Part shown: positions 51,500-56,019 of the stretch, piece after piece
How the letters are laid out: the number at the start of each line of letters is the position of its first letter
How positions within the stretch are numbered: position 1 is the stretch's first letter
NCBI RefSeq assembly: GCF_024448985.1
Contig: NZ_JAMOII010000001.1
Location: 1 to 64,000 of the forward strand
DNA: 64,000 nucleotides
Source: Stutzerimonas stutzeri
Lineage (GTDB): Bacteria > Pseudomonadota > Gammaproteobacteria > Pseudomonadales > Pseudomonadaceae
Direction: 5' to 3'
Made by a program: the position numbers and the translations under genes
The notes under the pieces: model-generated
What the model saw: only the letters and a program-made list of their open reading frames with translations
What the model was told of the DNA's origin: nothing
Databases searched by the model: none

Positions 51500-51632
51500 A
51501 TGCCGACAAGTTCGGCCCTACGGGAAGGACGGGGCCGTCGAAAGTGCTGTGGAGCTTCTGGAGCGCTCAAGCTCGTAGGGCCGAATTTATTCGGCCGTGG
51601 ACTTTGTGATGGCCGAATGAGTTCTGCTAGAC
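51454..51632. repeat. Family C palindromes in a degenerate 70-bp tandem repeat
   Basis: Palindromes at 51465-51486, 51501-51521 and 51575-51596 (GCCGAATTTATTCGGC type) are followed by a decayed copy near 51609. The block from GCGCTCAAGCTCGTAG at about 51454 repeats from about 51563. The first copy overlaps the ubiT 3' end and the second touches the stop of the convergent DGC gene. Confidence 0.75.
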
Positions 51633-52022
51633 CGAATACAGCCGCGGCCGCGGCTTCATGCGGTCGCTGGCGATGATGCTGCGTATGTCCTCGAACAGCG
51701 CATCGGCTTCCGCCTCGGAGCAGTCTTCACGATAGCGCTTGCGCAGGCCGTAGCTGCTGAGGGTGATGTGCACGTCGGCGATCACGTCGTGCTGCGCCAG
51801 ACAGGCGCGTGCGCAATGCAGCGGGCAGCCGTCGATAGCCAGAATCGGCCGGCCTGAGTTGGCCTTGTTGACCAGCGAACTGACCCGTCCACCGACACCG
51901 GCAATGCAGGACATCTCCGCCAGCCCGGCGCGATCGAGACGCACCGCGAGGGTATTGGCCAGCTGTGCCACGTTGGAGCAACCCGAGCAGGAATAGACCA
52001 GCGGGAGTAGGGGCGTCGACAT
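51627..52022 (-). CDS. DGC-domain cysteine-rich protein
   Basis: A 131-aa protein with the zinc- or iron-sulfur-binding DGC pattern: CSGC (Cys12, Cys15), Cys39 in EMSCIAGVGG and IDGCPLHC (Cys66, Cys70). The family's function is undefined. The start at 52022 follows GGAGA 6-7 nt upstream. A DNR-type box 59-72 nt upstream suggests anaerobic induction. It lies downstream of and on the same strand as the DNR-type regulator gene. Confidence 0.8.
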   Translation of the reverse strand: MSTPLLPLVYSCSGCSNVAQLANTLAVRLDRAGLAEMSCIAGVGGRVSSLVNKANSGRPILAIDGCPLHCARACLAQHDVIADVHITLSSYGLRKRYREDCSEAEADALFEDIRSIIASDRMKPRPRLYSV

Positions 52023-52080
52023 CGCGTTCTCCAGTTCTGTAGGGCGATCGGCAGTATCCCGGCTGGGGTGGCCAGCGCAT

Positions 52081-52094
52081 TTGACGATCATCAA
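52081..52094. promoter_or_regulatory. FNR/DNR-type box for the DGC gene
   Basis: TTGACGATCATCAA, 9 of 10 matches, centred 66 nt upstream of the DGC-domain gene. Confidence 0.7.
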
Positions 52095-52117
52095 GACCTG
52101 AGGCGATCGGCCACAGG

Positions 52118-52795
52118 TCACTCCTGGTAGGCGGCCAGGCCCTGGCTGTTGAGGATCTCGATGCGCCGACGTTGCACGCTGATCATTCCCGACTCGATCA
52201 AGCGGTGCAGGATGCGCGAAAAGGTCTCCGGCTGGATGCCCAGCTTGGACGCGATCAGACGCTTGGGTACGTCGAGGGTGACCACGCCGCTGTCGTCCTC
52301 TTGCGACTGGTAGAGAAAGCGCACTACGCGGTGGCTGGCGTTGGCCAACGTCAGGGTGTCGATCTCGTTCATGCGCTGGTGCAGGCGGATGCTCAGGGTG
52401 GCGAGGATGTCGAGACAGATGCTCGGGTGCTCTTCGAGCATCCGCCGGTAATGCTGGCCGTGCAGGCTGGCGACGAGGCTGGCCTTGAGCGCCGTGGCAC
52501 TGACCGGGTAGTTCGGCGTGCCGGTGAACAGCAGCGCTTCGGCGAAGGATTCACCGCCGCGGATCACTTCCACCAGCTTTTCCTGGCCGTCGCAGACCAC
52601 GCGATGCAGCTTCACCTGGCCGCTGAACAGGAAATAGAAACGCTCGGCCTTGTCGCCCTGGTGAAACAGCGAGGCGCCGGCCGACAGTCGCTTGAGATTG
52701 GCCGATGCACAAACCTCCTGCAGAGCCGCCTCCGGCAGGCGGCTGAACAAGTGGTGGCGGCGAAGCTCCGCAACAAGTGATGTTTCGCTGAGCAT
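52118..52795 (-). CDS. dnrS: DNR-type Crp/Fnr regulator (DnrS-like)
   Basis: A 225-aa regulator with sensor domain LFHQGDKAERFYFLFSGQVKLHRV and recognition helix IQPETFSRILHRL, near-identical to that of DnrD. The N-terminus lacks the four Fe-S cysteines of FNR/ANR, so it is a Dnr-subfamily protein. P. stutzeri has several such paralogues. The symbol dnrS rests on my recollection that dnrS neighbours the anaerobic ribonucleotide reductase gene, as here. The signal it senses is not established. Confidence 0.75.
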   Translation of the reverse strand: MLSETSLVAELRRHHLFSRLPEAALQEVCASANLKRLSAGASLFHQGDKAERFYFLFSGQVKLHRVVCDGQEKLVEVIRGGESFAEALLFTGTPNYPVSATALKASLVASLHGQHYRRMLEEHPSICLDILATLSIRLHQRMNEIDTLTLANASHRVVRFLYQSQEDDSGVVTLDVPKRLIASKLGIQPETFSRILHRLIESGMISVQRRRIEILNSQGLAAYQE

Positions 52796-52930: not shown

Positions 52931-52950
52931 GAATTGACGATGGTCAATTC
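52931..52950. promoter_or_regulatory. FNR-like 20-bp palindrome upstream of nrdD
   Basis: GAATTGACGATGGTCAATTC is a perfect 20-bp inverted repeat with core TTGAC-N4-GTCAA, 82-101 nt before nrdD in the divergent dnrS-nrdD region. It is probably a DNR/ANR site, possibly serving both genes. Confidence 0.7.
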
Positions 52951-53031: not shown

Positions 53032-55044
53032 ATGCCTGGGGTTGAGAAGAGGGGGCGACCCGTCTCGCTACGCAAGCGTGACGGACGGCTGGTGGCGTTC
53101 GAACTGGACAAGATCGGCGCAGCAATCGAGGCGGCGGGCCTCGCTACCGGTGAGTTCGATTCGGCCGTTGCCCAGACGCTGGCTGCGCAGGTGCTGACGC
53201 GGTTGCCGCAACGCGTGGTCGAAGTGGAGCAGGCGCAGGATGCCGTCGAGCGGGTGCTGATGGAGGCTGGGTATTACGCAACGGCGCGCGCCTATATCGT
53301 CTATCGCGAGCGTCATGACCGGCTGCGTCGCGACCGCAAGGCCATCGTCGATGTCGCCTCCTCGATGAACGAGTACCTGTCGCGTGAGGACTGGCGCGTG
53401 CGGGCCAACGCCAACCAGGGCTATTCGCTGGGCGGGCTGATTCTCAACGTATCCGGCAAGGTCACTGCCAATTACTGGCTGGACGAGGTCTACAGCGCCG
53501 AGATCGGCACTGCGCATCGCGAGGGCGACCTGCATATCCATGACCTCGACATGCTCGCCGGCTACTGCGCCGGTTGGTCGCTGCGTTCGCTGCTCAACGA
53601 GGGTTTCAATGGCATTCCCGGGCGGGTCGAGGCCGGGCCGCCGAGGCATCTCTCCAGCGCGCTGGGGCAGATGGTCAATTTCCTAGGCACGCTGCAGAAC
53701 GAGTGGGCCGGCGCCCAGGCGTTCAGCTCCTTCGATACCTATTTGGCGCCTTTCGTGCGCAAGGACAACCTGAGCTATGGCGAGATCCGCCAGGCGATCC
53801 AGGAGTTCATCTACAACCTCAACGTGCCGTCGCGCTGGGGCACGCAGACGCCCTTCACCAACCTGACCTTCGACTGGGTCTGCCCGGAGGATTTGCGCGA
53901 GCAGGTCCCTTACATCGGCGGCGAGGAGATGCCCTTCGCCTATGGCGATCTGCAGGCTGAGATGGAGCTGATCAACCGCGCCTATATAGAAGTCATGCAG
54001 GCCGGTGACGGCCTGGGTCGGGTGTTCACCTTCCCGATCCCGACCTACAACATCACCCACGACTTTCCCTGGGATAGCGAAAACGCCGACCGCCTGTTCG
54101 AGGTGACGGCACGCTACGGCCTGCCGTATTTCCAGAACTTCCTTAATTCGGACATGCAGCCCAACCAGGTGCGTTCCATGTGCTGTCGCTTGCAGCTGGA
54201 CGTGCGCGAGCTGCTCAAGCGTGGCGGCGGGCTGTTCGGGTCCGCCGAGCAGACCGGCTCGCTGGGGGTGGTGACCATCAACTGCGCGCGCCTGGGCTAC
54301 CTGCATCAGGGTGACCGCCGCGGGTTGTACGAGCACCTCGATGCGCTGCTTGAGATGGCCAAGGAAAGTCTCGAGGTCAAGCGCAAGGTCATCCAGCATC
54401 ACATGGATGCAGGGCTCTACCCCTACACCAAGCGGTACCTGGGCACGTTGCGCAATCACTTTTCCACCATCGGCGTGAACGGCCTGCACGAGATGGTGCG
54501 CAACTTCACCGAGGACGCCGAAGGCCTGCAAACGCCGGCCGGTCGTGCTCTGGCCATCGAGCTGCTGGACCATGTGCGGGCGGTGCTGGTGCGCTTCCAG
54601 GAGGAAACCGGCCACCTCTACAACCTGGAGGCGACGCCGGCCGAAGGCACGACCTACCGCTTCGCCAAGGAAGACCGCAAGCGCTTCCCGGACATCCTGC
54701 AGGCGGGCACGGCCGAGGCGCCGTATTACACCAACTCCTCGCAGCTGCCGGTGGGCTTTACCGACGACCCGTTCGAGGCGCTGCAACTGCAGGACGAACT
54801 GCAGACCAAGTACACCGGCGGCACCGTGCTGCACCTGTACATGGCCGAACAGATTTCGTCGGCCCAGGCCTGCAAGAACCTGGTGCGCAAGGCGCTCGGA
54901 CGTTTTCGTCTGCCTTACCTGACGATCACCCCGACCTTCTCGATCTGTCCGGTGCACGGCTACCTGAGCGGGGAGCATGAGTTCTGCCCGAAATGCGATG
55001 AGGCGCTGCTGGCCAAACAGACCAGCTGCGCCTGCCCGACTTGA
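53032..55044 (+). CDS. nrdD: NrdD, class III ribonucleotide reductase catalytic chain lacking its glycyl-radical loop
   Basis: Oxygen-sensitive ribonucleoside-triphosphate reductase, 670 aa. An N-terminal ATP-cone (about 5-95: SLRKRDGRLVAFELDKIGAA) precedes the alpha-beta barrel (EGDLHIHDLDMLAGYCAGWSL, SMCCRLQLDVREL, LGVVTINCARLGY). The C-terminus reaches the zinc site (ICPVHGYLSGEHEFCPKC, Cys639, Cys652, Cys655) and then stops after ACPT. The glycyl-radical segment normally following is missing here and is encoded by the next gene. GGAGG lies 4 nt before the ATG at 53032; another ATG sits at 53029. Confidence 0.92.
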   Translation: MPGVEKRGRPVSLRKRDGRLVAFELDKIGAAIEAAGLATGEFDSAVAQTLAAQVLTRLPQRVVEVEQAQDAVERVLMEAGYYATARAYIVYRERHDRLRRDRKAIVDVASSMNEYLSREDWRVRANANQGYSLGGLILNVSGKVTANYWLDEVYSAEIGTAHREGDLHIHDLDMLAGYCAGWSLRSLLNEGFNGIPGRVEAGPPRHLSSALGQMVNFLGTLQNEWAGAQAFSSFDTYLAPFVRKDNLSYGEIRQAIQEFIYNLNVPSRWGTQTPFTNLTFDWVCPEDLREQVPYIGGEEMPFAYGDLQAEMELINRAYIEVMQAGDGLGRVFTFPIPTYNITHDFPWDSENADRLFEVTARYGLPYFQNFLNSDMQPNQVRSMCCRLQLDVRELLKRGGGLFGSAEQTGSLGVVTINCARLGYLHQGDRRGLYEHLDALLEMAKESLEVKRKVIQHHMDAGLYPYTKRYLGTLRNHFSTIGVNGLHEMVRNFTEDAEGLQTPAGRALAIELLDHVRAVLVRFQEETGHLYNLEATPAEGTTYRFAKEDRKRFPDILQAGTAEAPYYTNSSQLPVGFTDDPFEALQLQDELQTKYTGGTVLHLYMAEQISSAQACKNLVRKALGRFRLPYLTITPTFSICPVHGYLSGEHEFCPKCDEALLAKQTSCACPT

Positions 55045-55046
55045 CT

Positions 55047-55123
55047 TGTAGGAGCGGGGGGACGCCGAGTCCTTGTCCGCGAAATAGGCGCACCTCGCGG
55101 CTCGCGAGCGAGCGCGCTGCTAC
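55047..55123. repeat. Degenerate REP pair between the two nrdD parts
   Basis: TGTAGGAGCGG... and an inverted partner ending GCGCGCTGCTAC form a decayed BIME in the 115-nt gap separating the NrdD main chain from the glycyl-radical gene. Confidence 0.6.
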
Positions 55124-55159
55124 GAATGTTTCACCCATCCGTTACTCAAGGAGCGATAT

Positions 55160-55321
55160 ATGAAAGCAACTCAACTGCCCGAAGCCCAACGCCAGCGCTG
55201 TGAAGTCTGGACCCGTGTCATGGGCTATCACCGCCCGGTTGCCGCGTTCAATCCCGGCAAGCAGTCCGAGCATCGCGAGCGCACTCATTTCACTGAGCAG
55301 GCGGCTGGGTTGGCGCGTTAG
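55160..55321 (+). CDS. Separate glycyl-radical subunit of NrdD
   Basis: A 53-aa protein with the complete C-terminal NrdD signature: CEVWTRVMGYHRPVAAFNPG followed by KQSEHRERTHF. Gly22 in RVMGYH is the residue that would carry the radical made by NrdG. A strong AAGGAG sits 6 nt before the ATG, and the gene lies 115 nt after nrdD, in another frame, and 2 nt before nrdG. Expression as an independent peptide is therefore likely, reminiscent of stand-alone glycyl-radical proteins such as YfiD/GrcA. It was too short for routine gene callers to be sure of. Confidence 0.85.
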   Translation: MKATQLPEAQRQRCEVWTRVMGYHRPVAAFNPGKQSEHRERTHFTEQAAGLAR

Positions 55322-55323
55322 CT

Positions 55324-56019
55324 ATGGGTGCTGCGCTACGGATTGGGGGGCTGGTCCCCCTGACCACTCTGGATTTTCCCGATCACCTGGCCTGCGTGCT
55401 GTTCTGCCAGGGCTGCGGCTGGCGCTGCCGTTACTGCCACAACCCGCAGCTGATCCCGACCTGCGGCGCCGAGGAACACCGCTGGGATGATGTGCTGGGG
55501 TTTCTCGAACAACGTGTCGGACTGCTCGAAGCGGTGGTCTTCAGCGGCGGCGAGCCTACCCTGCAATTGGCGCTGCCGGATGCCATCGATCAGGTGCGCG
55601 CGCTGGGATTCAAGGTCGGCCTGCATAGTGCCGGTATCAAGCCGAAGCTGTTCCGTCAGGTGTTGCCGCTGGTGGATTGGGTAGGCTTCGATATCAAGGC
55701 GCTGCCCGAACACGGCCCGATGATCACGGGTGTCGAAGGCAGTGGCGCAGCCAACTGGAAAAGTCTTGAGCACCTGTTGGAAAGTGAGGTCGCCCATGAA
55801 TGCCGTACCACGGTGCATTGGCACCTGTTCGATGCCGAGCGCCTGCTGGACATGGCCCAACGCTTGAGGGCGCTGGGCGTCGATCGTTTCGCCGTGCAAT
55901 GCGTGCGCACCGCACGGATGCTCGACGAGAGCCTGCCTGACAGCCGCGCACCCCATGATCAGCTGCGTCTATGGGAGCGCCTGGGCAAGCTGTTTCCATC
56001 ATTCGTATTGCGCGGTTGA
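55324..56019 (+). CDS. nrdG: NrdG, anaerobic ribonucleotide reductase activase
   Basis: Radical SAM enzyme of 231 aa that generates the glycyl radical on NrdD. The 4Fe-4S motif is CGWRCRYC within FCQGCGWRCRYCHNP, followed by VVFSGGEPTLQ and the SAM-binding strand. It starts 2 nt after the small glycyl-radical gene, so the two are translationally linked. Confidence 0.93.
   Translation: MGAALRIGGLVPLTTLDFPDHLACVLFCQGCGWRCRYCHNPQLIPTCGAEEHRWDDVLGFLEQRVGLLEAVVFSGGEPTLQLALPDAIDQVRALGFKVGLHSAGIKPKLFRQVLPLVDWVGFDIKALPEHGPMITGVEGSGAANWKSLEHLLESEVAHECRTTVHWHLFDAERLLDMAQRLRALGVDRFAVQCVRTARMLDESLPDSRAPHDQLRLWERLGKLFPSFVLRG

Follow-up and report, generated by a model that had tools for sequence, protein, structure and literature searches.

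A probable two-chain class III ribonucleotide reductase with a separate glycyl-radical peptide in Stutzerimonas stutzeri and other Proteobacteria, and stand-alone peptides of similar kind in viruses

Here, we analyzed a 64,000-nucleotide stretch of the Stutzerimonas stutzeri genome (RefSeq assembly GCF_024448985.1, contig NZ_JAMOII010000001.1, positions 1 to 64,000; hereafter the window, in whose numbering coordinates are given), in which the class III ribonucleotide reductase (RNR) gene nrdD is divided into a main chain and a separate small gene for the peptide that carries the glycyl-radical loop. This split is confirmed to be real and not an error. Judged from homology and conservation, the locus very probably specifies a functional class III RNR of two chains, NrdD and the peptide, with NrdG as the activase, and the peptide is best read as an exchangeable radical subunit of such an enzyme.

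The main chain is an open reading frame (ORF) of 670 amino acids that ends in TGA (53032..55044, plus strand) and lacks the glycyl loop. It contains an ATP cone (amino acids 14-97; PF03477, 72.2 bits) and the NRDD catalytic core (amino acids 126-657; PF13597, 582.6 bits over model positions 2-529 of 562), and falls in the NCBIfam family NF006126 (1132.6 bits). Near its C-terminus, which reads ...CPVHGYLSGEHEFCPKCDEALLAKQTSCACPT, is a zinc-site motif C-x2-H-x9-C-x2-C (54946..54996, plus strand), to which zinc binding is ascribed by alignment alone, and the stop falls 15 residues past the final CxxC. After a gap of 115 nt (55045..55159), the peptide gene (53 amino acids; 55160..55321, plus strand) follows in a frame different from that of NrdD, with a Shine-Dalgarno (SD) sequence AAGGAG (55148..55153, plus strand) six bases 5' of its ATG. 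The peptide, MKATQLPEAQRQRCEVWTRVMGYHRPVAAFNPGKQSEHRERTHFTEQAAGLAR, carries the RVMGYH loop with the predicted radical glycine Gly22 (codon 55223..55225, plus strand). The 562 positions of PF13597 are shared out between the two products, 2-529 in the main chain and 531-562 in the peptide (34.3 bits, cut-off 26.2), both above the curated cut-off. Two bases after the peptide stop begins nrdG (231 amino acids; 55324..56019, plus strand), a dedicated radical S-adenosylmethionine activase of NrdG2 type (TIGR02495, 213.5 bits, cut-off 131.15). The sequence-only reading of the window had described an NrdD that ends after its zinc site and an RVMGYH loop placed on its own 53-residue ORF, with a ribosome site, before nrdG; the ORFs and the two Pfam halves agree with this description.

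Both chains could be placed on one NrdD fold. The main chain aligns to residues 104-612 of Thermotoga maritima NrdD (4coi), with the zinc-site motif at about 594-608, and the peptide profile aligns to residues 612-645, with Gly22 on Gly621, the radical glycine of that enzyme (PMC4493059). The main chain reaches to 612 and the peptide starts from 612, so that the zinc site is on one side of the cut and the buried glycyl loop on the other.

In the own genome, which is 99.98% complete in 52 contigs, no NrdD was found beyond the two PF13597 matches of the main chain and the peptide, and the idea that a second full-length nrdD makes this copy a pseudogene fails. The pyruvate formate-lyase-type glycyl radical domain PF01228 is absent from the same genome, hence the peptide has no partner of that type there. 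Among 56 genomes of the genus, including the own one, 45 have the core together with a separate peptide and 11 lack both; G032, which is among the 45, has an additional single-chain NrdD besides the split pair. ORF analysis was carried out for 110 loci, 30 from the genus (L003-L032, L003 being the window's own) and 80 from GTDB, and all 110 are split; for genus genomes beyond these loci, split status was taken from two separate profile matches. The survey of relatives that the sequence-only reading had proposed therefore turned up no uninterrupted ORF among the loci so analyzed, and its claim of a class III RNR split in two genes holds on homology, co-occurrence within the genus, conservation across Proteobacteria and purifying selection. 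The 80 GTDB loci are the best 80 of 568 relatives, chosen by likeness to the peptide (P. aeruginosa is not among them), so that these counts show constancy within the group and not frequency across bacteria. In four genomes (G200, G010, G034 and G1015) the profile scan gave one shared open frame; ORF analysis found a stop between core and peptide in each, G1015 included.

The distance from the NrdD stop to the peptide ranges from -26 to +413 nt in 79 GTDB loci. The remaining one, L072 from a Ventosimonas metagenome-assembled genome, was excluded because its value of +874 is an artefact of a stop inside the NrdD core match; this copy may be broken or misassembled. Over all 80 loci the peptide occupies the three frames relative to NrdD 22, 28 and 30 times. 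The variable spacing and the use of all three frames exclude read-through or programmed frameshifting as a general explanation. An SD-like motif precedes the peptide gene in 75 of the 80 relatives, and the peptide lies within 25 nt of nrdG in 62 of the 78 in which nrdG could be placed. In one further locus (L220, genome G365) the peptide adjoins nrdG and nrdD is about 9 kb away. The host peptide is under purifying selection, with an uncorrected pN/pS of 0.142 over 34 codons in 81 host peptides (1406 pairs with pS < 0.6).

Based on the sole genome copy, the genus pattern, the 110 split loci and the spacing and frames, we ruled out an error of sequencing, a pseudogene, read-through and frameshift. 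An intron or intein as the cause of the split was rejected from the short 115-nt gap, which has no endonuclease-sized ORF; no RNA-family search was made. The gap holds a repeat, presumably a repetitive extragenic palindromic (REP) element, with six matches in the genome including itself, the other copies being partial, as would be expected of true intergenic space. The idea that Cys pairs in the newly formed tail of NrdD have a redox role was also considered and dropped, as only 21 of 71 tails have at least two Cys after the CxxC.

The split group extends to Gamma-, Beta- and Alphaproteobacteria. In 398 Pseudomonadota genomes, PF13597 had matches in 57, of which 15 are split, 41 are single-chain and one (G389) is too weak to call. 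NF006126 was above its cut-off in 33 of 369 genomes of the window's class; 30 NF006126 loci, including the own one and leaving out those of G771, G577 and G748 (all over the cut-off), comprise 25 split, four single-chain and one cut by a contig end. In the class of genome G431, 25 of 190 genomes had a PF13597 match, 17 of them split and eight single-chain or partial. The peptide also matched 29 plasmid records. Five of six examined are split (Thiothrix, in which NrdD itself is in two frames, Bradyrhizobium, C. metallidurans, P. denitrificans and C. necator H16), and the sixth, from Actinomyces oris, has a single-chain NrdD. In the three of these split plasmid records that are annotated, RefSeq names the small gene 'nrdD', which implies that the gene is annotated there with the oddity unflagged.

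In a quick tree of 89 NrdDs, all 72 rows labelled as split fell into one group of 75 (SH-aLRT 96); this tree has a few duplicate rows and labels L139 as single-chain though it is split. The three other rows of the group (L146, L149 and L198) are re-fused members, with the same two parts joined in one chain. In L198 (G937), NrdD and peptide share one frame of 879 codons, which carries a long extension at its C-terminal end. A second quick tree, built from 77 rows, needs four changes, and a single clade for all split rows was not rejected (p-AU 0.796); most long branches and L139 were left out of it, L177 was kept, and it came with a warning of long branches that meet. One old fission with few re-fusions is thus a fair reading of the trees, not a proof. 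In addition, two loci (L139 and L142, in genomes G416 and G349) have another NrdD type (RRITGYLVGTLDRFNN) that is likewise split at a similar place, with a TAG stop after the CxxC and then a 60-residue peptide behind AAAGGG, which we take to be a second, independent event.

Four genomes of the G431 class have more peptides than NrdDs: four in G801 and two each in G861, G878 and G858, the second G858 peptide being below the cut-off. Several of the extra-peptide genomes are fragmented, and small contigs may be misbinned. Seven stretches with peptides away from NrdD were examined. Some of these copies lie beside genes for an integrase and an endolysin (L212), a tail-collar protein (L216) or a relaxase (L208); L210 is beside a zincin peptidase and a Toprim protein, with a small gene that by eye resembles one next to the relaxase of L208. 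L209 and L214 are unlinked to NrdD and have no clear mobile hallmarks, and in the case of L218 the sole peptide found in the genome is on a different contig from NrdD. For four of six extras (L208, L209, L212 and L214), the nearest of 34 peptides was the operon peptide of the same genome, with an identity to it of 86% for L212 and 90% for L214. As a separate observation, at L209:3726-5969 and L216:1827-4280 a gene pair matching AbiLi/AbiLii (AAA_21 and RloB) is present shortly downstream of a stand-alone glycyl peptide.

Stand-alone peptides were also found on virus contigs. Scans of IMG/VR with a peptide alignment (A1) and with L216 gave 85 peptides of this first type, namely 80 retained out of 185 relatives and five, respectively. 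By hidden Markov model search no NrdD or NrdG ORF was found in the flanks of any of the 85; flank lengths vary, with at least 5 kb on both sides in 26, and virus records may be fragments, so NrdD may lie beyond the contig. One locus (L284) had been flagged as fused solely from a long open frame without NrdD homology. Searches over the whole length of 45 of the 85 records gave a single PF13597 match in each of 44, always within model positions 513-562 (39 over the cut-off), and no match in the remaining one. Phage-type genes occur near the peptide in L228, L262, L244 and L293, and weakly in L305. Five of six first-type peptides (the window's included, L216 not) match PHROG 4132, a longer family profile of 'unknown function', at positions 114-155 of 179 or nearly so. 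Twelve viral peptides (L231-L233, L236, L237, L249, L250, L253-L255, L257 and L265) have a Cys-rich N-terminal module, eight of the 85 being recognized by pattern and the other four by eye; this module is possibly a zinc site of its own.

A scan with the L139-type peptide (second type; 80 retained out of 288 IMG/VR relatives) yielded 65 peptides with no NrdD in the flanks, five with an NrdD core and 10 single-chain. The five (L310, L313, L318, L355 and L386) are virus contigs with a split NrdD, whose core stops short of the loop, with 54 nt to about 1.9 kb between it and the peptide downstream. Whole-record searches of 44 of the 65 gave the glycyl loop alone (positions 507-562) in 43 and, in G1097, also the core in two pieces; 38 of the 44 had matches over the cut-off. 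An endolysin (L339), a terminase (L317) and a DNA methyltransferase with a phosphoadenosine phosphosulfate (PAPS) reductase (L314) occur within about 3 kb of second-type peptides, and all three second-type peptides compared with PHROGs match the end of the NrdD-like PHROG 487. Among INPHARED phages no stand-alone match was found: the window peptide matched only the ANMV-1 virus, whose gene is annotated as an anaerobic reductase, and one more record, MT835493, came from two of the three viral queries. The NrdD of this phage (L309:6009-8438) is a single chain, extended at the C-terminus by a part that resembles glutaredoxin by eye.

While the split, its conservation, the fit of both chains to one NrdD fold, their co-inheritance and the selection on the peptide are directly supported, we infer that the peptide docks, bears the radical and can dissociate, as parts of a possible mechanism. 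NrdG would generate the radical at Gly22 of the peptide, and the peptide would dock on the truncated NrdD just past the zinc site and put its loop into the catalytic barrel, where an active-site thiyl radical would be generated. In described enzymes the C-terminal glycyl domain is ordered or mobile depending on the bound nucleotide (PMC11226230), and such mobility makes a detachable version physically plausible. Oxygen cleaves the chain of the radical enzyme (PMC2795772, PMC3019208, PMC4390871); a separate peptide would confine this damage to a cheap part, and the cell might replace 53 residues rather than an enzyme of 670. Phages and mobile elements might bring a spare of this kind, so that anaerobic deoxynucleoside triphosphate synthesis continues in the infected host. 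A cheap replaceable part together with a phage or mobile spare is the most likely benefit, a proposal that may as well be wrong as right. That the two-chain form most likely works in cells is suggested by C. necator H16, which has the split form and for whose complete denitrification nrdDG is reportedly essential (PMC2864759).

Compared with class III NrdDs (PF13597, NF006126; T. maritima 4coi and P. copri 8p23), the ATP cone, core, zinc-site motif, glycyl loop and adjacent NrdG are all alike, but here the zinc-site motif and the glycyl loop are on different proteins and the loop is not on the chain of the core. GrcA/YfiD of E. coli and Y06I of phage T4, which are spares for oxygen-cleaved pyruvate formate-lyase, are likewise small stand-alone glycyl-loop proteins and also phage-borne. 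However, the present loop is of NrdD type, and in hosts with the split the peptide supplies the sole glycyl loop instead of supplementing a full-length enzyme. Membership of the GrcA/YfiD family was rejected, as the window peptide matches PF13597 and not PF01228; its only other Pfam match is a sub-threshold one to DUF6191, and eight viral or mobile peptides match PF13597 only. By analogy and phage distribution, the peptide may nevertheless work like GrcA/YfiD in restoring an oxygen-cleaved enzyme. NrdJa/NrdJb of P. aeruginosa (PMC9669993, PMC4009431) is also an RNR in two chains from adjacent genes, but it is of class II and B12-dependent, with no glycyl radical site split off; identity with NrdJab was rejected because the best matches here are class III models. 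Phage nrdD genes interrupted by an intron, intein or homing endonuclease (PMC3653736) are similar in having nrdD over several coding regions, whereas the gap at our locus has no such element, the cut is before the glycyl loop, and the spacing in relatives goes down to overlap.

We tentatively propose, with slightly less than even confidence, that the glycyl radical domain of class III RNR is a mobile, exchangeable protein cofactor, which would be a permanent subunit in Proteobacteria and a phage spare that re-arms oxygen-cleaved or depleted host NrdD, perhaps also in single-chain hosts. The stand-alone peptides on virus and mobile contigs and the two extra copies close to the operon peptides strengthen the suggestion of the sequence-only reading that the radical subunit is dissociable and perhaps replaceable. 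Several observations weigh against the main reading of a working two-chain enzyme with an exchangeable subunit. A separate chain is dispensable, as is seen from the re-fused members and the usual single-chain NrdDs; the RefSeq annotation indicates that the small gene is recognized and says nothing on whether it works; and the peptide profile finds solved NrdDs weakly (E 0.01), as expected of about 33 residues. Moreover, the own-genome peptide ranked only sixth for L210 and 18th for L216, the L216 peptide is below the Pfam cut-off, and viral peptides, though constrained, are less so than those of hosts (pN/pS 0.39; 425 pairs, 84 sequences).

Other explanations have also to be considered. Split genes are often errors, and the peptide is in frame behind a single stop in 16 of the 80 GTDB loci, as in G200 and G1015; yet a decayed or misread gene, whether by sequencing error, frameshift, pseudogenization or recoding into one chain, has a negligible probability given the 110 split loci, their spacing and frames, the SD-like motifs, the purifying selection and a separate peptide in every one of the 45 genus genomes with the core. 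A fission accident without functional consequence, which would have left a permanent complex with nothing exchanged or repaired, deserves appreciable though minority weight: one old event may suffice for all split rows, re-fused members occur, and the peptide mostly stays near nrdG. It accounts poorly for the many virus contigs with stand-alone peptides and NrdD out of reach, for the two extra copies with 86% and 90% identity to their operon peptides, and for the independent split in the second NrdD type.

The viral peptides might instead act as decoys or inhibitors by occupying NrdD or NrdG of the host, with which their higher pN/pS and the Cys-rich modules on some of them would be consistent. 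We regard this as unlikely, since 84 viral sequences retain R-x-M-G-Y and the subsequent R-P, N, G-K, E and R at 97-100% (a conservation to which the search patterns and a script anchor contributed in part), two extra bacterial copies are nearly identical to operon peptides, and five of the 80 second-type virus loci also have the split NrdD core. A separate chain could also serve mainly to set the dose of active enzyme, peptide expression acting as a regulatory switch on NrdD. The ribosome site of its own in most relatives and the locus in which the peptide tracks nrdG and not nrdD point in this direction, but in the window a single FNR-type box ahead of nrdD precedes what appears to be one operon with the peptide in it, and such a role appears rather improbable.

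In the described class III RNRs the radical glycine is on the catalytic chain (e.g. PMC11226230, PMC4493059, PMC4009431). The searched literature, which left most subscription journals outside, yielded split class II enzymes as well as interrupted nrdD genes of phages, but neither a two-chain class III enzyme of the present kind nor a stand-alone NrdD glycyl peptide; either may still have been published elsewhere. A natural two-chain form would make the radical subunit accessible on its own to activation, damage, replacement and assay, and oxygen damage and repair of class III RNR would become directly testable. It also suggests that many Proteobacteria would be misjudged if an NrdD were considered dead for its missing C-terminal glycine. 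According to PMC8683613, no more than two spare parts had been validated, both acting on pyruvate formate-lyase, and others may exist; the virus peptides bear on the question, raised in the same paper, of spare-part proteins for glycyl radical enzymes beyond pyruvate formate-lyase. If the proposal of an exchangeable cofactor is true, a second spare-part system would stand beside GrcA/YfiD, on a DNA-precursor enzyme, and PHROG 4132 would gain a function.

With respect to the surroundings of the locus, a box TTGACGATGGTCAA, which we take to be of ANR/FNR/DNR type, lies 84 bases before the nrdD start (52934..52947, plus strand). Eight FNR/ANR-type boxes TTGAYNNNNRTCAA were observed in the window (9422, 37450, 37553, 40104, 44432, 48991, 52081 and 52934), compared with 0.11 expected by shuffling, and this box-rich 64-kb window may be an anaerobic gene region. 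Divergent from nrdD, on the minus strand, are genes for a Crp-like regulator (52118-52795; cNMP_binding and HTH_Crp_2) and a DGC-domain protein (51627-52121).

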